This document shows positions 1,489 to 39,004 of a DNA stretch of 39,989 nucleotides, in pieces. Below the pieces are notes generated by a model that did no database searches, was not told the DNA's origin, and saw only the letters and a program-made list of their open reading frames with translations. The DNA is from a virus. Position 1 is the stretch's first letter. Each line of letters opens with the position of its first letter. The translations under genes were made by a program, and so were the position numbers. The DNA lies in IMG/VR virus record IMGVR_UViG_3300047472_000435, positions 1 to 39,989 of that record. One strand, written 5' to 3'.

Positions 1489-1668
1489 ATGAAAAGAGAA
1501 TACCAGCCAGCACCGCATGACCCTTCGTCAGAGGAGGTCAATTTCGACATCACGCGCATGAGAAAAGCTATCGAGGAGGGGCAGCGCTTCGTTATGCCTG
1601 AAGGTATGCCACGCGAAAGCTTTCGTGAATGGATGCGCGAGAACGCCAATAAATGCCGAACCAAGTAG
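1489..1668 (+). CDS. Putative antitoxin of a TA-like pair
   Basis: A 59-aa acidic/basic mixed protein with no family I can name. The region around residues 20-55 is helical and charged (e.g. RKAIEEG, ESFREWMREN). I place the start at ATG 1489; the only SD-like sequence, AAGG, is just 3 nt away, so a GTG at 1474 remains possible. Its 3' end overlaps the next gene by 16 bp, a typical translationally coupled arrangement for toxin-antitoxin operons. Composition is poorer in GC than the phage core. The antitoxin role is inferred only from size, gene order and the toxin-like neighbour. Confidence 0.5.
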   Translation: MKREYQPAPHDPSSEEVNFDITRMRKAIEEGQRFVMPEGMPRESFREWMRENANKCRTK

Positions 1669-2042
1669 AATTCAGCGAACATTTCACTAGCCTTTTTATA
1701 AATCTTTCCCAAGAAGAGCAAGACCTCATTGAGGAATTTGTATTCCACTTCGAGACGAATGGTCTTCGCACGTTCATAGGAAAAAAAGGGCCCAACGACA
1801 ACGTTCCTCATTCAGACCCCAACCGTCAGGTTAAGATCGCTTTTGCTAAGCGACATAGACTTTGGCATGTTCATATCGGCTATCCCCGCTGGAATAGTTG
1901 TCGCAACCCGGCAGGCGGGTATAAAACGTCGAATTACGTAGTCCATTTTCAGAAATTCAACGATTCACATATCGCATTGGTCGACTACAACTCGCATGAC
2001 CCTATGGTCATGCCTAGCAAGACTTCTCTTTTTCGAAGATAG
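1653..2042 (+). CDS. Putative YafO-like toxin
   Basis: A 129-aa protein, close to the length of the YafO mRNA interferase family. An N-terminal helical segment (LSQEEQDLIEEFVFHF, about residues 18-33) is followed by FETNGL, GKKGPNDNV and a central WHVHIGYPRW strand, reminiscent of the FGRD...HIH layout of YafO-type toxins; the C-terminus has further His and aromatic residues. If so, it would cleave mRNA on ribosomes. The start ATG lies inside the upstream gene, giving a coupled pair. The locus is AT-richer than its neighbours and lies on the opposite strand to the portal gene, ending 5 bp from the portal stop. It could also be another RelE/ParE-superfamily toxin. Confidence 0.5.
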   Translation: MPNQVEFSEHFTSLFINLSQEEQDLIEEFVFHFETNGLRTFIGKKGPNDNVPHSDPNRQVKIAFAKRHRLWHVHIGYPRWNSCRNPAGGYKTSNYVVHFQKFNDSHIALVDYNSHDPMVMPSKTSLFRR

Positions 2043-2047
2043 CCTTC

Positions 2048-3070
2048 TTAGGCCTCCCCCGCGATTTCATAGGGTTTGAAACGCAAAACCTCCTCCCCTA
2101 GCCAATGATTCAACTCAGTCATTCGCGTCTGAATGGGTTCCAGCTCGTTGGACGCATATATCTGCGTCGCCTCCCTGATCGACCCGAACCCACCCGCGTT
2201 CTGCGGCACAATGCCCATCAGCTGTGGCGGAATGCGCAGGCTCGCCAGAACATCATCACGAGTCTGATTCTTGATAGAGTTGAATTCATCCTTCGCCGCC
2301 ACCTCGCTCACCGGAATTAACTGAATGCCGTCCTTCTTACCGGTCGGCGAGTACACGAACAAATTCCGGAAATTCCCCGGCCCCTTCGATTCCTTCAGCG
2401 CCTTACGCAACGCATCAATATCAGCCTCAGTCTGCGCCGCATCCGTCATGTACAAGATGAACCCGGCATGACTGCCGTTCTCGTAGTACTTACGCCGAAA
2501 GAGCGTCGCCGACTCGTTCAGCAACGCCGACTGCAAAGCACTGATCCACTCCGGCAGCCCATAAATCTCCTGATGCAGATCCGCCTCACGCAGGTGAAAA
2601 ATGCTGTCCGGCTCAAACGCGTGTTCATCCTTCCACCCACGCACTTGGTAAAACTGCCCATCCGGCCCGGCGCGCATGTACTTGGCCAACGGCGTTTCCA
2701 GCTTCCTAACCCCACCCAATCGCGAGCGGCGCCCTTCCAAGTACCCATTGCCCAAACACAAAAAGTCCAAGGCAAACTGCTCAAACGAAGCCCGTGACAA
2801 CAGCGGATGCGGGATAAACGTCTTGCTCAACAGGTTCCGCTTAAACATCAATCCCGAATGTAGATGCACGCTCGCCCCCACCGACCGGGCCAGCCCATCC
2901 AGCGACAGCGGCGGCTCATACCACCGCCCGTTGAACCAGCACTCCAGATAGTCGAGAACCTCCCGCCCCCCCAGCACCGGCGTCGGCTCGCCGAAGGAAA
3001 ACACCTGAGTCCCGGCGCCTGTGGCGGGTGTGGTCGCGGGCAACGTCTGGTTGGCCATTTGTTCGGTCAT
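2048..3070 (-). CDS. Q: Portal protein (P2 gpQ-like)
   Basis: A 340-aa portal vertex subunit of the PBSX/P2 gpQ family. A dodecamer at one head vertex admits DNA during packaging and joins the tail. Recognisable features are FSFGEPTPV near residue 25, the wing motif LGNGYLE (about 105), YYENGSHAGFILYMTD (about 195-210), KKDGIQLIPVSEVAAKDEF (about 245-265), and the conserved R-I-P-P-Q-L-MG-I motif (about 280-290). Length matches P2 gpQ (344 aa). Its ATG overlaps the terminase stop as ATGA, so the two are co-translated. It is a late gene transcribed leftwards, diverging from the scaffold/capsid operon. Confidence 0.95.
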   Translation of the reverse strand: MTEQMANQTLPATTPATGAGTQVFSFGEPTPVLGGREVLDYLECWFNGRWYEPPLSLDGLARSVGASVHLHSGLMFKRNLLSKTFIPHPLLSRASFEQFALDFLCLGNGYLEGRRSRLGGVRKLETPLAKYMRAGPDGQFYQVRGWKDEHAFEPDSIFHLREADLHQEIYGLPEWISALQSALLNESATLFRRKYYENGSHAGFILYMTDAAQTEADIDALRKALKESKGPGNFRNLFVYSPTGKKDGIQLIPVSEVAAKDEFNSIKNQTRDDVLASLRIPPQLMGIVPQNAGGFGSIREATQIYASNELEPIQTRMTELNHWLGEEVLRFKPYEIAGEA

Positions 3071-10326: not shown

Positions 10327-10799
10327 ACAAGCCCGACAGCCTGAAAGCGCACCTGCTCGCCACCGTGGCCGAACTCAAGCACAACCCCGACCGACTGTTG
10401 ATCTTCATCGACAACGGCAAGATCCGCTGCACTGCCGCGCAGACGCTGTCGTTCGAGTACAGCTTCGACCTGCAAGTCATCCTCACCGACTTCGCAGGGC
10501 ACCCCGACAGCGTCATGTTGCCGCTGCTGGGTTGGCTGAGCGTTCACCAGTCCGAGTTGCTGGAGAATTTGAACAGGGCCGCAGATGGCATTAAGTTTGA
10601 GGCTGACATTCTCGACAACAGCAAAGTGGATATGAGCCTGACACTGCCGCTCACCGAGCGTGTTGTGGTGGGCAAGGATGACCAGGGCAACACTACTATT
10701 CGACATCCTGGCGAACCGCAAAGGGCTGCTGACTTTCTTGATCCGAACTGGATACCTGGTGCGCAGGGTACCGGGAGTGAATGGGTGCTGCCGAAATGA
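10323..10799 (+). CDS. R: Tail completion protein (P2 gpR-like)
   Basis: A 158-aa member of the gpR family (P2 gpR is 155 aa). Landmarks: MNKPDSLKAHLLATVAELKHNPDRLLIFIDNGKI at the start, SFEYSFDLQVILTDFAGHPDSVMLPLLGWLSVHQSELL (about 41-80), and LTLPLTERVVV. With gpS it finishes the neck end of the tail. ATG 10323 is chosen because it overlaps the Rz1 stop by ATGA and begins at the conserved N-terminus; it overlaps gpS by ATGA as well. Confidence 0.93.
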   Translation: MNKPDSLKAHLLATVAELKHNPDRLLIFIDNGKIRCTAAQTLSFEYSFDLQVILTDFAGHPDSVMLPLLGWLSVHQSELLENLNRAADGIKFEADILDNSKVDMSLTLPLTERVVVGKDDQGNTTIRHPGEPQRAADFLDPNWIPGAQGTGSEWVLPK

Positions 10800-11254
10800 C
10801 CAACCGACTGGAAGCGCTGGAAGACTGGGCGGCGGGATTGCTCGGGCAGCTTGAACCGGCGTCCCGCAACAAGCTGGCTCGTAGCGTTGGTCATGAATTG
10901 CGACGCAGTCAGCAAAGTCGAATCATTTCGCAGCTGAACCCGGATGGCAGCAAATTCGCGCCGCGTAGACAGCGGGATCTGCGGGGTAAGCAAGGGAGGG
11001 TGAAGCGGACGGTAAAAATGTTTCGAAAGCTGCGTACGACCCGCTATCTGAAAGTGCGATGCTCCGGCACCGTCATCAGCGTGGGCTTCACAGGACGTAT
11101 TGCTCGAATAGCGCGAATCCATCAGTACGGCCTCAAAGACCGGCCAGAACCCGGTGCAGCGGACGTCCAATATCATGAGCGCGGAATACTTGGGTTTACC
11201 GATGCCGACTATGCCTTAATCAGGGATGTTCTATTGAAGAGTTTGACCAATTAA
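10796..11254 (+). CDS. S: Tail completion protein (P2 gpS-like)
   Basis: A 152-aa gpS-family protein (P2 gpS is 150 aa). It begins TNRLEALEDWAAGLL, has the basic ARSVGHELRRSQQSRIISQLNPDGSKFAPRR segment (about 33-63), VGFTGRIARIARIHQYG (about 99-115) and the typical C-terminus ILGFTDADYALIRDVLL. It is needed to join tails to heads. ATG 10796 gives an ATGA overlap with gpR. In P2 the next reading frame is orf30, then gpV; here a large cargo gene occupies that gap. Confidence 0.92.
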   Translation: MTNRLEALEDWAAGLLGQLEPASRNKLARSVGHELRRSQQSRIISQLNPDGSKFAPRRQRDLRGKQGRVKRTVKMFRKLRTTRYLKVRCSGTVISVGFTGRIARIARIHQYGLKDRPEPGAADVQYHERGILGFTDADYALIRDVLLKSLTN

Positions 11255-11370
11255 CTCACTCGTTTGACGGCGTCGCCCCACAAATGGCAATGTGTTCAGC
11301 AGTGGTTCCCAAAAGCATCATGCAGGTCAGAAAAAATAAAATTTAACTGGCCGAAACAAGGAGGCGGAGT

Positions 11371-13659
11371 ATGGCAAATACGATGCGAGTTGATGTTTTT
11401 TACAGACCATTACGTATAGGGTGGGCAGTTCGCGCAGGAGACATCGACTCAATACGCTTAGCGATGAAATACTCACATGCTCTGTGGGGAGGCCGATTCA
11501 ACCCCATCATAATCATTGACAATGAAGATGAAGCGACTCAACTAATAGAAAAATTTCGCGTAGACCTTATTTGGCCGATAGGAGACAGTGAAGAAGTCAA
11601 AGATTTCCCAAAAAAATTTCCACACCTCAAAGTGCCTTTCCATGGGAAATCTATATTTCTAAAAGACGATCAGTTTCAACACCACTACGCTCAAGTTTTA
11701 GATATAGCAAATGCAATGTCACACTGGCACACAACTGCGGAATGGAAACACATAAAAGATCATGGAATACGCAAATATACATGGGCTCCGGACGACCCTC
11801 TTTCTGATATCTTCCTCTGTCATCTCGGAGAGTATCCAACTTCGCAAGAGGTTGGCACTGACTATTTGGAGATGTTTTCACAAACTGCAGAGCCAATAGA
11901 TTACAAGCTTAATCCAGACTCCCCGATACCTTCCGACATCCACCATCACGCAAGCCTTTCGATGTTTGGGCAACTGGGATTCTATCGACATACTTCCAAC
12001 CATATGAGGTGGGATCTACCGGGCTTTTTCGTCGGAAGTACAAGCAACACTTCAGATCTTGTATGTCATTGGAATTTGCGAGCTTGTGACCTTTCGATCT
12101 GGTTCATCGATCCAGAACACATCGACCGATACGAAACACTAGTTCCAGAGCTAATTACCACTTATCGAGAAATGATCGAACACCGCAAATATGACCTTGG
12201 ACGCAGTATAGGAATTTGGTCACGCGACACCACCGCAGCAGCGAAGTTATTCTCAGAAATTGAACTATTCCTATTTGAAGTGTGCGATGAGTTTTGGTCT
12301 AGAAATTTAATTTCAACTCCAACGATGCATTTAGGGCAATTTTCGACTCTTGGCGTGATGGACGACACGACTGACACACCGCATGTTAATTTCGGACTGA
12401 CCAACAAGCCCTTTGATGCCACGTTCTACCAACAACACCTCGTCGCCTCCACCTCATTTTTTGGACTCTACGGAGAAGAACATTATACATTTCACACCCC
12501 ATACATTCCGGAACTCAACGAGTTCTATTCTAGAGCAATGCATTATTCGCCCGACAGGCTGAGAGTCGAGCCAGAGAGGATCGGAGTAATAATTCACACG
12601 ACTGAAAATGATAGCTCGTTAAGATCTGTAACAGTCAGCGAGCTACTAATAAAAATATTTTCAATGGCAGGTTTTCATAGCCAATTGAGCAATAGTGGTC
12701 GCATTGTGCGACAACTCATGACGCAACTTGGGGGTCTTCAGGGAGGTCGTATTTTTAAAATTCCAGGTGTCAGAGAGTTAATTAAAAAATTTGGCCCCCG
12801 CACTTCTTTCTCCAAACGAACAGCCTACACTACAATCGCGGACAAAAAGCAAGGAAGCCCAGCTACTTTCCCCTCCCACGAACATCTTTATTTATCGCCA
12901 CGCGCGATAGGCACACTACTTACGCCCGCCGATGTATTCAGCCACATGGTGGATAAAGGGTTATTTCGAATTGGAATCGATGTAAACTGCGAAAAATGTG
13001 GCATGGAGAGCTGGGTGACACTCGATGTACTAAAAGAGCAAATAACATGTGAACTATGCGGACACCACTATAACGCCACAAAACAAATTTTAAACAATGA
13101 ATGGGCATTTCGACGATCAGGGATACTAGGCGCAGAAAAAAACATCCAAGGGGCAATACCAGTTTCGTTGACACTTCAACAACTCGGCACTACCTTTGAC
13201 CATGTTTTATCCCACAACATGTACTCTCCATCCATGGACCTAAGCCCCATTAATGACGACAACCTACCTAGGTGCGAGGTCGATTTTATCTGGCTAATAA
13301 ATGGTCAAGATATTGGCCCTTCAGACCTGATCATTGCCGAATGCAAAGACAAAGGACCTATAAACCCCGAGGATTTTTCACGCGACGTGGAAAACATGAG
13401 ACGGGTAGCAGACTCTTTTCCACAACGCCGTTTCAATACCTACATTTTATTCGTAAAACTTGCACCTTTCACTAACGAAGAAATCAATATGGCACGCACA
13501 CTAAACGGGAAATATCAAAATCGCGTGATTCTCTTAACAGCTCGGGAGCTAGAGCCTTATCACATATACGAGAGACTTAAAGACGAGCACGAAATAAAAA
13601 GCTATGCGGCTTGGCCAAAGAACTTGGCCGATATCACACAAGAAATATACTTTGCTTGA
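11371..13659 (+). CDS. Large cargo protein: zinc ribbon plus PD-(D/E)XK-like nuclease motif
   Basis: A 762-aa protein of no family I can name. The N-terminal 150 residues look like an alpha/beta domain (YRPLRIGWAVRAGDID, NPIIIIDN, VDLIWPIGDS). The middle part is long and uncharacterised. C540-x2-C543 and C560-x2-C563 form a zinc ribbon. The C-terminus has a restriction-nuclease-like core: D638 in CEVDFIWL, then E657-x-K659 in IIAECKDK, followed by an amphipathic helix (DFSRDVENMRRVADSF). A strong SD (AAGGAGG) lies 6 nt before ATG. The gene is far AT-richer than its flanks and sits between gpS and the gpV late-promoter site, the P2 orf30 position. A single-gene defence nuclease is my inference; no partner gene is visible. 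Confidence 0.8.
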   Translation: MANTMRVDVFYRPLRIGWAVRAGDIDSIRLAMKYSHALWGGRFNPIIIIDNEDEATQLIEKFRVDLIWPIGDSEEVKDFPKKFPHLKVPFHGKSIFLKDDQFQHHYAQVLDIANAMSHWHTTAEWKHIKDHGIRKYTWAPDDPLSDIFLCHLGEYPTSQEVGTDYLEMFSQTAEPIDYKLNPDSPIPSDIHHHASLSMFGQLGFYRHTSNHMRWDLPGFFVGSTSNTSDLVCHWNLRACDLSIWFIDPEHIDRYETLVPELITTYREMIEHRKYDLGRSIGIWSRDTTAAAKLFSEIELFLFEVCDEFWSRNLISTPTMHLGQFSTLGVMDDTTDTPHVNFGLTNKPFDATFYQQHLVASTSFFGLYGEEHYTFHTPYIPELNEFYSRAMHYSPDRLRVEPERIGVIIHTTENDSSLRSVTVSELLIKIFSMAGFHSQLSNSGRIVRQLMTQLGGLQGGRIFKIPGVRELIKKFGPRTSFSKRTAYTTIADKKQGSPATFPSHEHLYLSPRAIGTLLTPADVFSHMVDKGLFRIGIDVNCEKCGMESWVTLDVLKEQITCELCGHHYNATKQILNNEWAFRRSGILGAEKNIQGAIPVSLTLQQLGTTFDHVLSHNMYSPSMDLSPINDDNLPRCEVDFIWLINGQDIGPSDLIIAECKDKGPINPEDFSRDVENMRRVADSFPQRRFNTYILFVKLAPFTNEEINMARTLNGKYQNRVILLTARELEPYHIYERLKDEHEIKSYAAWPKNLADITQEIYFA

Positions 13660-13694: not shown

Positions 13695-13713
13695 TGTACA
13701 TTGGCGCCGTACA
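13695..13713. promoter_or_regulatory. Candidate Ogr-binding site before gpV
   Basis: The sequence tgtacattggcgccgtaca is a TGTA-N11-TACA dyad with the same 19-bp geometry as those before gpO and gpFI. It lies between the cargo gene and gpV, so the baseplate operon keeps its own late promoter despite the insertion. The centre is only 57 bp from the gpV start, closer than in the other two cases. Confidence 0.6.
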
Positions 13714-13760: not shown

Positions 13761-14333
13761 ATGAACGACTTAGCCACCCTCGCCCGCCTGATCGAAAACC
13801 TCATCCGCCTCGGCACCATCGCTGCCGTGCAGATGAAGCCGCCGCGCGTGCAGGTCAAAACCGGAACGCTCACCACCGGCTGGCTCCCATGGATCGCCAC
13901 CCGGGCCGGTGCCGAACGCGAGTGGAATCCTCCCACTATCGACGAGCAAGTCATCCTGTTCAGCCCCTCCGGCCAGCTCGGCAATGGCATCGTTCTAACT
14001 GGCCTGTTTAGCGACAATATCCCGGCCAACGGCGACCGCGAAGGCCTGCACCGCTGCACATACCGCGACGGCACCGTCATCGAGTACGACAGCGTCGCGC
14101 ACCACCTAAACGCTACGCTGGCAGAAGGCAGCACCACCAACCTGATCAGCACGGGCGGCATCCACATCGTTGGCCCGATCACCCATGAGGGCGACTACAC
14201 CCAGACCGGTAACCAGAACATCACTGGTCTGGTCACCGTGTCTGAAGATGTCATCGCGGCCGGCATAAGTCTGGTGAAGCACATGCACGGCGGTGTCATG
14301 CCTGGCGGCGCAAAAACAGGCAAACCGGAATGA
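13761..14333 (+). CDS. V: Baseplate spike protein (P2 gpV-like)
   Basis: A 190-aa trimeric membrane-piercing spike (P2 gpV is 211 aa). The N-terminal helix NDLATLARLIENLIRLG leads to an OB-fold (RVQVKTGTLTTGWLPWI, IDEQVILFSPSGQLGNGIVLTGLFSDN). A beta-helix region follows and ends in VKHMHGG, whose HxH pair matches the iron-binding apex motif of P2-type spikes. It is the first gene of the baseplate operon and overlaps gpW by ATGA. Confidence 0.94.
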   Translation: MNDLATLARLIENLIRLGTIAAVQMKPPRVQVKTGTLTTGWLPWIATRAGAEREWNPPTIDEQVILFSPSGQLGNGIVLTGLFSDNIPANGDREGLHRCTYRDGTVIEYDSVAHHLNATLAEGSTTNLISTGGIHIVGPITHEGDYTQTGNQNITGLVTVSEDVIAAGISLVKHMHGGVMPGGAKTGKPE

Positions 14334-24504: not shown

Positions 24505-25311
24505 CTAGAACCCCTTTACAAAACTTACCTCATCACCAAACGAAGAAATTTTCAATGACTCATTATAACCGACCACGCCGACGCACTCTTCGCAAAACTT
24601 ATTATGATAAGCAGCAAGAAAAAGATATTTTTCCAAAACCTTAGAGTTTGCTGAATACATTTTAATATTTGACGCAATCATGTCTCTGTGAAGCGCTATA
24701 ACTTGCACATCAAGCTTTGTGGGGAATATCCCCCCCGCTTCAGGATCATCATTCGGTACAAACGCCGCGCGAAGATAGTTTACAAAATATCGTCCATGAC
24801 GCTCAAAAACGTAACTCCTACAAGACCGCCCATTGAATACTGCACTGACTACATCTAAATGCTCATTTTTCTTTGCAAAATCGAATACACCTTGCGAGAG
24901 CATTACTACGGGGTTAATCGCTTGATCTTTCTCGATATCAACCGCTTCTATTAAAGCCTCACCATAAATTGCATTCTCGTCAATATACAGCCCCCCCAAT
25001 GCCAGACCACCACGCACAAAATAACCGTGACGAATCAACTCAATTTGGTATCTGCAAATAAACTCAAATATTGGAGCTACAAAAACCTGACCTAGATCAC
25101 ACTTCAAGGAAATCAATACATTATCCGAAAAACTTTTAACGTCTACCAAGCCTAAATCTTTCGGTTGCTCCAATGCAGACAAACCTGCTTTCAACGCATT
25201 AACCACTTGACTACAGGCCTCATGAGCATTGCCATTTTTCGTGACAATACTTTTGAACCCTAACATATCAATGAATGCACAGAATCGTTTCTCAATTTTC
25301 ACTTCAGACAC
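24505..25311 (-). CDS. Class III nucleotide-cyclase-like protein (cargo, third gene)
   Basis: A 268-aa soluble protein. FCAFIDMLGFKS (10-21) matches the first metal-binding strand of class III cyclases (D15, GF 18-19), KSFSDNVLIS (59-68) matches the second metal Asp (D63), VRGGLALGGLY (99-109) the R-x-G-I-x-x-G strand, and YGEALIEAVDIE (116-127) the transition-state helix. The predicted reaction is cyclisation of a nucleoside triphosphate, with unknown base preference; it could also be inactive. GTG start, GGGAG 8 nt upstream, stop TAG at 24505. It lies 38 bp downstream of a membrane-protein gene, and is strongly AT-rich. Cyclase next to membrane effector recalls Pycsar-type defence, but this is inference. 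Confidence 0.7.
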   Translation of the reverse strand: MSEVKIEKRFCAFIDMLGFKSIVTKNGNAHEACSQVVNALKAGLSALEQPKDLGLVDVKSFSDNVLISLKCDLGQVFVAPIFEFICRYQIELIRHGYFVRGGLALGGLYIDENAIYGEALIEAVDIEKDQAINPVVMLSQGVFDFAKKNEHLDVVSAVFNGRSCRSYVFERHGRYFVNYLRAAFVPNDDPEAGGIFPTKLDVQVIALHRDMIASNIKMYSANSKVLEKYLFLAAYHNKFCEECVGVVGYNESLKISSFGDEVSFVKGF

Positions 25312-25349
25312 AATAGTCGCTCCCAGCGCATACGAAAATCATTTTGAAT

Positions 25350-25988
25350 TCAACCTGCACTAGAAATCAACCTATAAACTCTTTTTACAATCATAAGCAC
25401 AGTTAAAATCAGGTTCAAAGAAAAGAATATTGAGATCGATATCAACAAAACTTTGTAGTCAATATCTATTTTTGTCTCCCCCCAAACCAAAGGTGAATAC
25501 TGTTCTTTAAGAAGGTATGAAACTATCCCGGTCACAATAGAAAACAATGAAATCAATATCGCATAAGAAATACTTGACAACAGCTCACTCAGCAACTGCG
25601 CATGCTTTGACAAATGAATATATAACGCACTAACTCTAAATGCTGGCTTATCTTTCATGAGATCTTCAAGAGAGGAGGCAGAAAGATTAGGCTCAGGTGT
25701 ATTCTGGGAATCATATGCAGATATTTTTTCTTGGACACGCTTATTTTGATCGTACACTAAAACCAGAAGATTCAATAAGAGACCGGCAAATATTGAAGAC
25801 ACCGACATTAAAAGATTAATTAGCCCCGACTTATCCGAAATCCCTAAATAATAAAACAACCCAGCAAGCAAAAATGGAGTCAACACAAATATAAAAAAAT
25901 CGGCCCAGTCAATTTTACCATCCGCATCATAAATCGCTGCAACAAGATGTTTTTTGATAATGAAACCAACCCGAATTTTTTTACTCAT
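25350..25988 (-). CDS. Four-helix membrane protein, putative effector (cargo, second gene)
   Basis: A 212-aa protein with four predicted membrane segments, at about 29-48, 56-79, 137-160 and 178-202. The central soluble loop (80-136) is charged and holds ISAYDSQNTPEPNLSASSLEDLMKD. Short basic ends (SKKIRVGFIIKKH; VKRVYRLI) suggest both termini face the cytoplasm. The hairpin-loop-hairpin layout recalls membrane effectors of nucleotide-signal defence systems, though I see no cyclic-nucleotide-binding domain. Its ATG overlaps the upstream stop by ATGA, so it is co-translated with the first gene. A plain membrane protein of other function cannot be excluded. Confidence 0.75.
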   Translation of the reverse strand: MSKKIRVGFIIKKHLVAAIYDADGKIDWADFFIFVLTPFLLAGLFYYLGISDKSGLINLLMSVSSIFAGLLLNLLVLVYDQNKRVQEKISAYDSQNTPEPNLSASSLEDLMKDKPAFRVSALYIHLSKHAQLLSELLSSISYAILISLFSIVTGIVSYLLKEQYSPLVWGETKIDIDYKVLLISISIFFSLNLILTVLMIVKRVYRLISSAG

Positions 25989-26884
25989 CTTGACACCTTC
26001 CCTATAAATTCTTCGATTAGCTCGCTAGCATAGCCATGAAGTTCGGCCTTATCAGGAACACCATCAACAATATTAACATTATCGCCGGTAATTTCTACAG
26101 CAGATATCGGATCGCCCATTTTTAATGAAACAACTTTTTTCCTTCCGCCCGATTCAATAACCGCCCTAACATCAGTTGAAACTCTACTCAACATTTCTAC
26201 TGGACTCTCATTGCCTCCAACAGCTATTTCCTTCAAAGAAGAAAAAGTCCCAAACGCTGCTCCCCGCTTGGGCTTAATAATAACCTCCGTCCTGTCAACC
26301 CCTAGCTGATCTGCCAAGTCACCACCTAAGCAAACTTCATAATTTGACAAACGAAGCTCTTTAACATTGGAGTTATCAAGCCATTCCTGCACAGTTTTCT
26401 CGTGAGCCAGAGGAGAAATACGGACCTTTAAATCGATCTGAGTCTTAAAATACTCATTAAATTTTTCATCAAAAAAAGATTTAATTCCGCGATTTCCAGC
26501 GCTATGAAACAACACCACAGCAGTTCGACTATGCTCGGGCACACAAAAATTAAAATAGAGAGACCTTACATCCGAGTCATCATGACGCTTATCATAAGTT
26601 TTGGACTTGCTGGCCAAGCTATAAATCTTTCCAGGTATCCCATACTCACCCAGATCAATCCACCCATAAATGGACCGATCAACCCGACTAACACTAGTTA
26701 CATGAACTGTCTTCTTCGCCTCAATGTCATTATAGATATTAGTGCTTAGCGAATTGAGAAAAGCTTCGATAAAATCCAACAAATCCCTAGAGCGCACACT
26801 ATCTAACAAGTGATACCTCTCAGTAATATCACCGGGCAAATATTTATCAAAAATCTTAATTGAGTAAGGTCTAAATGAATGCAT
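25985..26884 (-). CDS. Unknown soluble protein (cargo, first gene)
   Basis: A 299-aa protein I do not recognise. The N-terminal part (MHSFRPYSIKIFDKYLPGDI, DLLDFIEAFLNSLSTNIYNDIEAKK) is mixed helical. The middle has YGWIDLGEYGIPGKIYS and RSLYFNFCVPEHSRTAVVLFHSAGNRG, suggesting a beta-rich core. The C-terminal half (about 185-299) has DLADQLGVDRTEVIIKPKRG and a final helix SELIEEFIGK. There is no clear enzyme motif. I use ATG 26884 with GGGGA just upstream; a TTG further upstream is in frame but lacks support. It heads the operon behind a good sigma-70-like promoter. Being first in a cyclase/membrane operon, it may be the trigger or target-sensing part. Confidence 0.7.
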   Translation of the reverse strand: MHSFRPYSIKIFDKYLPGDITERYHLLDSVRSRDLLDFIEAFLNSLSTNIYNDIEAKKTVHVTSVSRVDRSIYGWIDLGEYGIPGKIYSLASKSKTYDKRHDDSDVRSLYFNFCVPEHSRTAVVLFHSAGNRGIKSFFDEKFNEYFKTQIDLKVRISPLAHEKTVQEWLDNSNVKELRLSNYEVCLGGDLADQLGVDRTEVIIKPKRGAAFGTFSSLKEIAVGGNESPVEMLSRVSTDVRAVIESGGRKKVVSLKMGDPISAVEITGDNVNIVDGVPDKAELHGYASELIEEFIGKVSR

Positions 26885-26932
26885 AAAATCCCCATAGAAA
26901 ACCAACAAGGCTATTCAAAAAAAAACATCTAA

Positions 26933-34051: not shown

Positions 34052-34083
34052 AGAAAGGCCCGATGTTGGGCCTTTCTGCTTTT
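34052..34083 (+). terminator. Rho-independent terminator before the integrase
   Basis: A perfect 10-bp stem (AGAAAGGCCC / GGGCCTTTCT) with a 6-nt loop and a following GCTTTT. It ends the early operon and isolates the integrase gene. Confidence 0.85.
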
Positions 34084-34125
34084 GCTCTGCTGATCAGTGG
34101 TTCAGTTCATCGTTTAGGGACGTGT

Positions 34126-35313
34126 ATGGCACATGGCGTAGAGGCCCGTGGCAATTCGGTGCGGGTCTATTTTCGTTACAACGGCAAGCGGTACCGGGAG
34201 CTTTTGCCCGGCGGGAATACCGCAGCCAACCGGGAGCGGGCCGCGCACCTGGTCAACATCATTGAATACGAGATCAAGGCCGGCACCTTCAATTACAGCC
34301 GGCACTTTCCTGATTCGGCCACCTTGGTCGAGAACACCTTCGGTCATTACCTCGACCTGTGGCTGAAGATCAAAAGCAACAGCGTTGCTGCGACGTCTTA
34401 TCGGGGATATGCCAATAAGGCCGAGGTGCATGTGCGACCGCGCTGGGGCAAGGTGCAGATCGACCAGATCGATCATCTGGATTTGCAGGAGTGGGTGCAG
34501 GACACGCTGTCGAAGCGGCTGAAGAACAAGACTATCCGGGACGTCATCAGTAACGTGCGCCAGGTTTTTCGGCTGTACCGCACTCGCAAAAAGGTGGCGC
34601 ATGATCCGACCGAGGGTTTGTTTGTGCGATTACCCGACCCTGAAGCGCCGGACCCGTTCACCAGGGCAGAGATAAAGCAGATTCTTGAGACACCCACCAA
34701 TCGGACGCAGGAGCTGCTGATGATTCAATTCATGATCTGGGCGGGGCCACGGGTATCGGAAACCATTGCGCTGGCCTGGGAGGACGTCGACCTGGCGCAA
34801 GGCACCGTGACCTTTCGCCGCTCCAAGGTGCGCGGCGCGTACCGCGTGACGAAAACCCGCCGTTCGACACGTCGCGTGCGCCTGCTGGCCCCGGCGTGGG
34901 ACGCCCTGCGCCAGATCGATGCGTTGACGCGCCACCGCAAGGCGGAAACCGTGGAGGTGGTCGAGCGGGACAACAAGACGGTGCGGAAACACAAGCTGCA
35001 CTTTGTGTTCCTGAACAGCAAAAGCGGGTTGCCGCACGCCAACGACTTCGTGGTGCGCGATCGCTTCTTCAAGGCGCATTTGCTCGCCGCCGGCGTTCGC
35101 TATCGCGGCCCCGGGCAGTGCCGGCACACCTACGCCAGTCAGTTGCTGACCACCGGGGTGGCGTCAATCGACTGGATCGCAGAACAGATGGGCCACACCA
35201 ACGGCAACATGATCCGTCAGCACTATGGGACGTGGATCAATGAAGACGGACCGGACGTGGTGGGGATGTTGCAAATGGCCTTGAAGCTGTCACCGGTTAC
35301 AGCTCTACATTGA
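34126..35313 (+). CDS. int: Tyrosine integrase
   Basis: A 395-aa phage integrase. An N-terminal arm-binding domain (VRVYFRYNGKRYRELLPGGNT, about 13-33) precedes a SAM-like core-binding domain (about 70-155; TFGHYLDLWLKIKS). The catalytic domain has R209 in AGPRVSETIALAW, the R333-H-T segment, MGH and the nucleophile Y367 in RQHYGTW. In the HxxR motif the first His is replaced (GQCR), a tolerated variation. It recombines attP with the tRNA-Ser 3' end. ATG 34126 is preferred, with GGGA upstream; an earlier frame start overlaps the terminator. Its 3' end overlaps the convergent small gene by 17 bp. Confidence 0.95.
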   Translation: MAHGVEARGNSVRVYFRYNGKRYRELLPGGNTAANRERAAHLVNIIEYEIKAGTFNYSRHFPDSATLVENTFGHYLDLWLKIKSNSVAATSYRGYANKAEVHVRPRWGKVQIDQIDHLDLQEWVQDTLSKRLKNKTIRDVISNVRQVFRLYRTRKKVAHDPTEGLFVRLPDPEAPDPFTRAEIKQILETPTNRTQELLMIQFMIWAGPRVSETIALAWEDVDLAQGTVTFRRSKVRGAYRVTKTRRSTRRVRLLAPAWDALRQIDALTRHRKAETVEVVERDNKTVRKHKLHFVFLNSKSGLPHANDFVVRDRFFKAHLLAAGVRYRGPGQCRHTYASQLLTTGVASIDWIAEQMGHTNGNMIRQHYGTWINEDGPDVVGMLQMALKLSPVTALH

Positions 35314-36122: not shown

Positions 36123-38090
36123 TTAAAGAAAGTCTTTCATATCAATATCCAGATTGGATCTAGATTTTATTTTCGCAAGAAGAGCATCAATTTTTTCAAA
36201 GTCCAATACGCGAAGCCCTGCTGCCTTAAAGGGATCTTCAAGGATTGCTAAGAATATATCTTTGATAGCGATATTTTCTGAGTGTAGCTCTTTAATAACT
36301 TTGGCATTGGGGCGGACCCACTTGCCTACTGGTAGTATTTTTTCCAATCCGTCAAAAATATATTGCATCTTGTGAGAATTGAGGCTGGCGGTATATTCTG
36401 AAGTTATAGCTTCCCAAGCCAATTTGTGTAGATTTTCATATTTGTCTTCATATGCTATAACAAGAAAAAATGGAGTACCATTAAGCGTCCCCTCTCTCCA
36501 GCACTCAGAATATTCTCCTCTGTGTTCATGTGCATGACATGAAAAGATAAGGGCTGGGGTGCCATCGTCCTCTTCGAATGACTCTGCGTTCCCTTCGACA
36601 GCCCAAAGCCCAATTTTAAATTTATTGACAAATTGGCAGGTGCTAATGGCATTGACTTGCTCGTTTTTACTGACAGTCAGAGCTTTCGCCTCGAGTGCAA
36701 ATTTTTGAGTGATAACAGACTCAAAAAGCAACGGACTCATATCATTTAAAAACTCGAAAACCTTAGCAAAAGACGCAGCCAATGGACTTTCAAATATTTT
36801 TTTAAGTAAGCGCAGACTGGACTCGTTGAATATTATGTATTCTGCAGCAAAGTACTCTAACAGCGTTTTGTGGAAGAATTTATACTCTGTACCATCTCTT
36901 TGCATAAGAGGGACGGCGACAAAGAGATCATCTAAGAAACTTGATGTAGAATTAGGTATCGCCAAACTGATCTTGGCCGCGTCATTGATGAAGCTGTCAG
37001 CCTCGCTAAGGCTTTCAAATGAGGTCTTCGTTTTAAGCATCATGTAATGACACAGGGCTCGAAGCAGCTTTCTGAAATCCTCAAATCCAAGACCTGATTT
37101 TTTCTCCCGCGCGTATCCGTTTTTATTAATTAAATCGTGCCCTTTGTACAAGGCATGGTATATCTCATCGTAAAATGTCGATATCTTATCTGCAATTGAG
37201 TTGTTTACTCCGTAAGTCCTATACAGCAACGATACTAAAAGTGGACTTTCGATAAATTTAGAAGGAATGCTAGACACATCTCGACTGAGCTTGTCCCCGA
37301 TATCTAGCCCCGATATCTTGTCGTATCTTTTTAGTAAGGACAATGCTTGTTCCTCAGTGAAAGGAGCAAACTTCAAAGAGGTTGCATTGATCAAATCCGG
37401 GATTATTTCTTGCGGGCGTGTGGTAATAATAATCGCATTATCCCCGCCTTTCGCTGACATCTCGTGAAGTTGATTTGCCAGCAAATGCTGGTGAGCAATC
37501 GAGACCTCGTCAAAACCGTCGAGTATAACGAAAAACTTCCCTAACCTCAAAAGTCTATAGAACAACTTTCGGTCAAATTTTTCGTCAGGAAAATCAAGCT
37601 CTGTCACGATGTTATCTGTGAAGCTTAGCTGCGGATCTACTTTTCTAAGATCGAAAAGTATTGGAATTCGGCCTGACTTGAATAACAGTTTTGCAACGAT
37701 AAATTTTGAAAATGTACTTTTCCCCATTCCTGCGCCATCAACGATGATAGTGGGCCTCGTCGGGGAAGACACGAGCTCGTCTGCGGTAATTAAGTTGTCA
37801 CCTGTGTCGAAGTGGGTATTTCGCACCATGTAAAGAGGTTCGTACGCTTCGAATATATCCAACTTTATCTGGGGAAACGTAATAGAAGTTATCTCTCCCA
37901 CACGCTCTGAGAGCTTTATTAGGTAGCGCTCCATTGTAGAAGCGAGCGCGTCGGCGTTGAGTTTTCCTTTCAGATCCTTTTCTGCAGCCCACTTCCTGAC
38001 CCTCTCAACGGTCGGAGATAACGCTGCGCTTATTAGTTCCATTCCCGGCTTTATTGCTTCACCAATTACTTTTTGCTCTATTGACGACAT
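36123..38090 (-). CDS. NACHT-domain NTPase (NLR-like defence cargo)
   Basis: A 655-aa STAND-type NTPase. Residues 1-105 are a helical N-terminal region (EQKVIGEAIKPGMELISAAL). Walker A is GAGMGKST (119-126), Walker B FFVILDGFDE (186-195, the NACHT form with the extra acidic residue), and TTRP (223-226) is the sensor. ALSLLKRYDK opens the winged-helix part. The C-terminal 300 residues show no LRR or TPR repeats that I can see; this part probably senses phage. Start ATG 38090 is set by AAGGGA 6 nt upstream; the open frame continues upstream without SD. Strongly AT-rich. Bacterial NACHT proteins protect against phages by abortive response; here it may guard the lysogen. Confidence 0.85.
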   Translation of the reverse strand: MSSIEQKVIGEAIKPGMELISAALSPTVERVRKWAAEKDLKGKLNADALASTMERYLIKLSERVGEITSITFPQIKLDIFEAYEPLYMVRNTHFDTGDNLITADELVSSPTRPTIIVDGAGMGKSTFSKFIVAKLLFKSGRIPILFDLRKVDPQLSFTDNIVTELDFPDEKFDRKLFYRLLRLGKFFVILDGFDEVSIAHQHLLANQLHEMSAKGGDNAIIITTRPQEIIPDLINATSLKFAPFTEEQALSLLKRYDKISGLDIGDKLSRDVSSIPSKFIESPLLVSLLYRTYGVNNSIADKISTFYDEIYHALYKGHDLINKNGYAREKKSGLGFEDFRKLLRALCHYMMLKTKTSFESLSEADSFINDAAKISLAIPNSTSSFLDDLFVAVPLMQRDGTEYKFFHKTLLEYFAAEYIIFNESSLRLLKKIFESPLAASFAKVFEFLNDMSPLLFESVITQKFALEAKALTVSKNEQVNAISTCQFVNKFKIGLWAVEGNAESFEEDDGTPALIFSCHAHEHRGEYSECWREGTLNGTPFFLVIAYEDKYENLHKLAWEAITSEYTASLNSHKMQYIFDGLEKILPVGKWVRPNAKVIKELHSENIAIKDIFLAILEDPFKAAGLRVLDFEKIDALLAKIKSRSNLDIDMKDFL

Positions 38091-38129
38091 CGCTATTCCC
38101 TTATGGTTGTCATTAAAACATTTTCCAAA

Positions 38130-38147
38130 TTTCAATCTGGATTGAAA
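38130..38147. promoter_or_regulatory. Candidate operator upstream of the NACHT gene
   Basis: Perfect dyad TTTCAATC-TG-GATTGAAA, 8-bp arms and 2-bp spacer, ending 40 bp upstream of the NACHT start. Its size and symmetry fit a dimeric repressor or activator site. No regulator gene is adjacent. Confidence 0.5.
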
Positions 38148-38491
38148 GCAGAGTTTTGCATGGGGCGATTTTATGCACTTAATCATCCTATGGACAGTCG
38201 GCGCAGCATAAGAGAAATTTCGCATTTTTGTTCTTCTAACTCACCGGAGATGGTTCGTCTAGCAAACTAAATAGCGAGGTCACTCCATGCCGTCTGTAGC
38301 CCTGTGTGCGGTTGCAGCGTCACTTGGTAAAGCAGTAGGTCCGGCTTTGTGGCTCAACGCTTAGAACCGGGGCTTGTCATCAACACAAAGCTCCGCCACT
38401 CACTCGGACGGCTTCAAGCAGCGCTCGCCCGTGCCGTGTACATTGAGCAACCGGCAGTTAATGGCCGATTGCAGCCTATCAAGACGACTCC
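38148..38491. other. Intergenic region with a tiny possible gene and a repeated 16-mer
   Basis: A minus-strand promoter for the NACHT gene must lie around 38150-38240; a TAAAAT is seen but the -35 box is weak. A 25-codon frame at 38287-38364 (ATG with GCGAGG upstream) reads PSVALCAVAASLGKAVGPALWLNA; I cannot tell whether it is expressed. Its last codon and stop are part of the 16-mer gcttagaaccggggct, also found across the gpD stop. GCTTTGTG and CACAAAGC around it could form a hairpin. Confidence 0.35.
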
Positions 38492-38905: not shown

Positions 38906-38937
38906 TACTGAATGTGGCGGTGAAGGAGAGATTCGAA
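38906..38937 (-). repeat. attR: attR core (32-bp repeat)
   Basis: Perfect copy of 457-488. It covers the tRNA 3' end from the CCA into the T-arm, so the integrated phage restores a complete tRNA gene. Confidence 0.92.
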
Positions 38938-39004
38938 CTCTCGATACAGTTTCCTGTATACACACTTTCCAGGCGTGCTCCTTAAGCCACTCGGACACTT
39001 CACC
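38915..39004 (-). tRNA. tRNA-Ser(GGA)
   Basis: A 90-nt class II tRNA with a long variable arm. The acceptor GGTGAAG pairs with CTTCACC, discriminator G, CCA encoded. The anticodon loop CTGGAAA has GGA (complement at 38968-38970), which reads UCC/UCU. T-loop TTCGAAT is present. The 3' part is rebuilt by the prophage. The 85-90 bp repeat continues past the tRNA into the terminator. Confidence 0.97.

Follow-up and report, generated by a model that had tools for sequence, protein, structure and literature searches.

The question raised by this locus is what is encoded by the lone passenger gene that sits between two tail genes of a prophage, and what it might do there. The window, by which we mean the whole 39,989-nt stretch of DNA that was analysed, carries this cargo gene in the setting collected in Table 1. 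A preliminary description had claimed a single 762-aa reading frame with a strong Shine-Dalgarno sequence and a deviant composition, and all of this was borne out: the frame begins with ATG and has a GC content of 43.5–46% (approximately 44%) compared with approximately 60% in the flanking phage genes. A promoter search for the cargo gene returned 4 sigma-70-like matches where 4.8 were expected from shuffled sequences. As no promoter stood out above chance, expression of the gene in a lysogen must be regarded as unproven.

Table 1. Coordinates of the cargo gene, its predicted parts and its surroundings in the window.
Feature	Position	Strand	Remarks
gpS (tail completion / virion morphogenesis)	10781..11254	+	Left boundary of hotspot; synteny with Citexvirus
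Shine-Dalgarno AAGGAGG	11358..11364	+	6 nt 5' of cargo-gene ATG (from sequence)
Cargo gene, 762 aa	11371..13659	+	N-terminal alpha/beta module, middle helical region, zinc ribbon, predicted PD-(D/E)xK nuclease
N-terminal alpha/beta module, approx. residues 1-395	11371..12555	+	Boundary approximate
Middle region, approx. residues 396-535	12556..12975	+	Beta strands then helices; boundary approximate
Zinc ribbon C540-x2-C543 ... C560-x2-C563	12988..13059	+	Four Cys invariant in 40/40
Predicted PD-(D/E)xK nuclease domain, approx. residues 592-762	13144..13656	+	Core E636-x-D638 ... E657-C-K659
Codons D638 to K659, putative catalytic residues	13282..13347	+	Strands 635-643 and 651-659
gpV late-promoter activator-like dyad TGTA-N11-TACA	13695..13713	+	Intact, downstream of cargo gene
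gpV (baseplate assembly)	13761..14333	+	Right boundary of hotspot

The nearest annotated phages were Pseudomonas Citexviruses (phiCTX-like Peduoviridae), with approximately 73% DNA identity over gpV-gpI. When the gpS-gpV gap was compared across these phages it was found to be empty in vB_PaeM-D14A, at only approximately 70 bp, to hold one 242-aa gene of unknown function in Dobby (L057:1424-2152) and two small opposite-strand genes in Sirocco (L059:1389-1965), and to be a gap without annotated gene in the PACL prophage. The cargo gene was absent from these closest relatives of the window phage. The dyad before gpV was kept in 5/5 phages (the window and the four Citexvirus relatives), in agreement with the earlier statement that the gpV promoter site had been left intact. 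In P2 the nonessential Orf30 is encoded on the opposite strand directly before the annotated pV activator site, and by analogy the window dyad would occupy the same place as this P2 pV-promoter activator site, the cargo gene sitting just upstream of the putative gpV control site. The gap comparison, the conserved dyad and Orf30 at the matching place together argue that gpS-gpV is a genuine insertion point, and the claim that the P2 orf30 position tolerates insertions is upheld by relatives which are empty there or carry unrelated genes. Excerpts of PMC9122126 and PMC9519451 state no defence role for the gpS-gpV (orf30) site. In phiCTX-like phages it is a further place to look for defence-type genes, and the Dobby and Sirocco genes are candidates for further cargo functions.

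Searches of Pfam, NCBIfam, PADLOC, PHROGs and PDB sequences with the window protein returned only marginal hits to the ribbon, and the protein is not covered by any family of Pfam, NCBIfam or PADLOC. PD-Lambda-5 was rejected, being matched by only 1/40 family members (E=0.0022), as was PDC-S64, for which the match was limited to the ribbon (E=0.012). No description of this zinc-ribbon nuclease family was found in the literature, and the view that the protein belongs to no well-described family stands. Single-sequence searches with the window protein alone recovered no relative in phages, viral or genome collections, and alignment-derived patterns were needed to find viral and genomic relatives. 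A plasmid search identified a full-length relative with 43% identity on a Bradyrhizobium plasmid, and alignment-based scans identified two viral copies and 50 genomic loci. In dozens of unrelated genomes the homologues agreed with the window protein in length and domain layout, and together with the motif conservation described below this goes beyond chance.

Forty full-length sequences from many phyla, 16–54% identical to the window protein, were aligned. The seven residues named in the preliminary description (C540, C543, C560, C563, D638, E657 and K659) were all confirmed at those positions and were invariant in 40/40 aligned rows, as were R12, D65, D229, W234 and N235. In the N-terminal module these last residues form a conserved set with W39-G40-G41-x-x-N44-P45. 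The genome scans used the patterns [LM]WGGR[FY]NP and [YC][IV]PE[LW]NEF, so part of the invariance of W39-G40-G41-N44-P45 follows from the search itself; the four cysteines, the three putative catalytic residues, R12, D65, D229, W234 and N235 all lie outside these patterns. Divergent plasmid proteins from Photobacterium and Piscirickettsia, found without the N-terminal patterns, keep WGG, D-x4-WN, CxxC..CxxC, ExD and ExK, although the Piscirickettsia protein, which was found via its C-terminal half and retains WGG and D-x4-WN, does not keep the N-P of WGGRxNP. In the tree the window copy grouped with Dyella, Rhodanobacter and Xanthomonas proteins (support 100/100), with Omnitrophota and Acidobacteria copies near this branch, a pattern that fits horizontal movement. 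Of 369 sampled genomes of one class only two matched, that of the query and one in which the copy is broken. The family is rare and patchily distributed, yet widespread across phyla, and the cargo protein is one member of this unnamed family and no isolated oddity. In one Sphingomonas plasmid copy (L002:7956-10346) what looks like a transposase insertion has split the gene, of which both halves can still be recognised.

Modelling of the full protein by AlphaFold2 with the family alignment gave a pLDDT of 90.1 and a pTM of 0.88. In the C-terminal part of the model, helix 592–608 is followed by strands 616–626, 635–643 and 651–659, helix 666–682 and strand 688–696, which is the predicted order of a PD-(D/E)xK domain. 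E636 and D638 lie on the second of these strands and E657 and K659 on the third, and because the two strands form one predicted hairpin D638 is placed opposite E657/K659. A structure with D638, E657 and K659 apart, which had been named as the result that would speak against the nuclease-like core, was not obtained. Both the fold and the D...ExK residues on adjacent strands of the model are those of the PD-(D/E)xK superfamily. The best Foldseek hits in the PDB were Cdn1 (E=6.9e-5, prob 1.00), Card1, Can2 and R.BspD6I, all PD-(D/E)xK defence or restriction nucleases, and a viral structure library returned generic PD-(D/E)xK folds only. By hhalign, D638 and E657-C-K659 were placed on the NELD...ECK core of the Card1 profile (E=0.0019, probability 14%, aligned over the nuclease core only). 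In the middle region S440, G443 and G454 are nearly invariant, and helix 519–528 precedes the ribbon. With its invariant motif set, confident model and structure matches, the C-terminal half is a zinc ribbon followed by a predicted PD-(D/E)xK nuclease whose catalytic residues are all in place, as had been proposed.

The N-terminal half was less familiar. Residues 1–455 folded alone gave a confident model (pLDDT 91.5, pTM 0.91) that had no match among PDB structures (best E=0.14, prob 0.07), and the earlier description of an uncharacterised alpha/beta N-terminus holds. These results bear on a reading of the protein as a second-messenger-activated effector, a cyclic oligonucleotide receptor resembling Card1, Can2 or Cdn1 of type III CRISPR systems. 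Although the best structure matches are cA4-activated nucleases and a Card1-type E-x-D...E-C-K core is present and aligns with that of Card1, membership of the CARF nucleases was rejected, as no CARF domain was detected when residues 1–455 were compared with the PDB or when the Card1 CARF profile was used (hhalign E=0.12, aligned to the C-terminal end of Card1). The cargo protein is moreover twice as long as these nucleases, carries a zinc ribbon, and has no recurrent partner of their kind: in the neighbourhoods examined, neither a cyclase nor a type III CRISPR gene was repeatedly found beside the relatives. We consider a second-messenger effector very improbable. As the N-terminal half has a confident predicted structure without PDB match, its ligand is a directly testable question.

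Genes flanking the relatives were then considered. SIR2 was among the neighbours at L003, together with nSTAND5, and at L006, and nSTAND3 was present at L021. Type I restriction-modification occurred at L008 along with Schlafen AlbA_2. A type III methyltransferase was accompanied by an AAA_23/SMC ATPase at L023 and by SNF2 at L024, and L001 carried genes annotated as abortive infection and PrlF-YhaV. At three loci (L016, L022, L034) the neighbours were a DUF1156 methyltransferase and an SNF2 helicase, with DUF499 in L034; Pfam detected DUF1156 in L034 alone, and in L016 and L022 the assignment was made by eye and by mutual blast clustering of both methyltransferases. Overall, 118 neighbours matched 298 PADLOC models. 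The control, 118 proteins of matched length taken from randomly chosen stretches of 14 genomes of one bacterial class, matched 6. The ratio is inflated because one helicase or methyltransferase matches dozens of models, but the direction of the enrichment is clear. Clear or probable defence neighbours, partly judged by eye, were found at approximately 12/29 core loci with usable flanks, the rest being lone genes, and many relatives lie alone among housekeeping genes outside islands. Upstream of the relative, the Bradyrhizobium plasmid island (L001:4751-10264) carries a homologue of PDC-S64 (E=2.6e-43), an S8 peptidase paired with an ATPase, and the abortive-infection gene.

The loci with methyltransferase genes are relevant to a type IV-like or modification-sensing restriction endonuclease, in which the N-terminal half would read modified or foreign DNA and the nuclease would cut at or near it with no signalling. 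A zinc ribbon and a PD-(D/E)xK domain would suit DNA binding and cutting, and some relatives do adjoin methyltransferase and SNF2 helicase genes, but most copies have no methyltransferase partner and PDB structure and Pfam searches of the N-terminal half found no SRA/EVE/ParB-like or other known reader domain. This explanation appears unlikely to us.

According to the portions of PMC12839542 available, auxiliary PD-(D/E)xK nucleases recur as effectors in BREX-related systems, and the DUF1156 methyltransferase, SNF2 and DUF499 set corresponds to the BREX-related core described there. At the three loci concerned (L022:3480-12292, L016:2246-12325, L034:575-11212) the nuclease is a possible auxiliary effector, and in L022 the relative begins 18 bp after the SNF2 helicase gene. 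A search by term of the main text of that paper found no zinc-ribbon family of this layout. In contrast to BREX auxiliary effectors, the copy in the window lacks BREX-type partners, as does the greater part of its branch.

A second type of context was provided by phages. In L003, a P2-like phage, the homologue and a SIR2-STAND gene lie exactly between the replication endonuclease and portal genes, an interval identified as a defence hotspot of P2 in excerpts of PMC9519451 and PMC9122126. The cargo gene resembles the hotspot cargo of P2 (old, tin, fun and others, in the same excerpts) in being a moron-type gene of a P2-like phage; it differs in that the window copy lies at the gpS-gpV (orf30) site and encodes a new protein family. 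The family is associated with both defence genes and phage hotspots, and a putative defence role is supported by this neighbourhood and hotspot evidence. The phage-borne copies (the window and L003/L004) and the tolerance of the site for inserts would also be compatible with a role outside immunity, in which the nuclease benefits the phage that carries it or a selfish, homing-like mobile element. We judge this to be quite improbable, given that plasmids or the genomes of bacteria from many phyla harbour most of the relatives, that the genomic sites of the relatives differ, that the closest relatives of the window phage do not have the gene and that the neighbourhoods are PADLOC-enriched. No additional phage copies emerged when viral contigs were scanned with the C-terminal half.

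Because the relatives cluster with known virus-defence genes, the cargo gene is probably a one-gene immune system directed against competing phages, and we favour, with reasonable though not high confidence, a lysogenic-conversion anti-phage nuclease. Of the known systems compared, Shedu (SduA, DUF4263/PF14082), which has been linked to BREX-type loci (PMC12839542, PMC12137116), is similar in that a single protein joins a variable N-terminal regulatory region to a C-terminal PD-(D/E)xK nuclease; in the model of the window protein an N-terminal region, presumably regulatory, and a C-terminal PD-(D/E)xK domain are likewise combined in one chain. The family differs from Shedu in its zinc ribbon and its N-terminal module, and membership was rejected: PF14082 (SduA_C) was found in 0/40 members at E<=0.01, and hhalign against 14 SduA proteins gave E=0.56 with the catalytic core unaligned. 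Our best reading of the sequence and the model is that the cargo protein would be a stand-alone defence nuclease, with an N-terminal regulator and a ribbon PD-(D/E)xK effector, that is Shedu-like in its working. The N-terminal module, in which the polar residues R12, N44, D65, D229 and N235 are invariant, may hold the nuclease inactive and sense a ligand or DNA feature derived from infection, the middle region and zinc ribbon would position DNA, and the released nuclease would cut or nick it via the predicted catalytic residues. In the branch with BREX-related or restriction-modification genes the protein is probably an auxiliary nuclease effector, while in the branch of the window it would act alone. 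Such a protein would enlarge the defence repertoire of prophages by a single-gene nuclease family that has no name so far and for which the catalytic prediction is clear. More tentatively, and with considerable doubt on our part, the N-terminal half may represent a new class of infection-sensing domain that switches the ribbon nuclease directly, making this a new one-gene immune system of many phyla; if true, it has been spread among them by phages, plasmids and islands.

Three other AT-rich stretches were observed on the prophage. The 129-aa ORF at 1653-2042 (+) adjoins the portal gene gpQ (2048-3070), a known P2 defence hotspot position, and had no family match in Pfam or PADLOC. The three-gene unit at 24505-26908 (-), encoding 268, 212 and 307 aa and adjoining the tail gene gpD, had no Pfam or PADLOC match; by eye its 268-aa product is nucleotide-cyclase-like and its 212-aa product membrane-protein-like, and a Pycsar-like unit is possible but unsupported. 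The third, at 36123-38225 (-) between the integrase (34063-35313) and tRNA-Ser (38915-39004), has a 700-aa product in which Pfam detects a NACHT domain (E=8.7e-8); this gene probably belongs to the bacterial NACHT-type defence genes.
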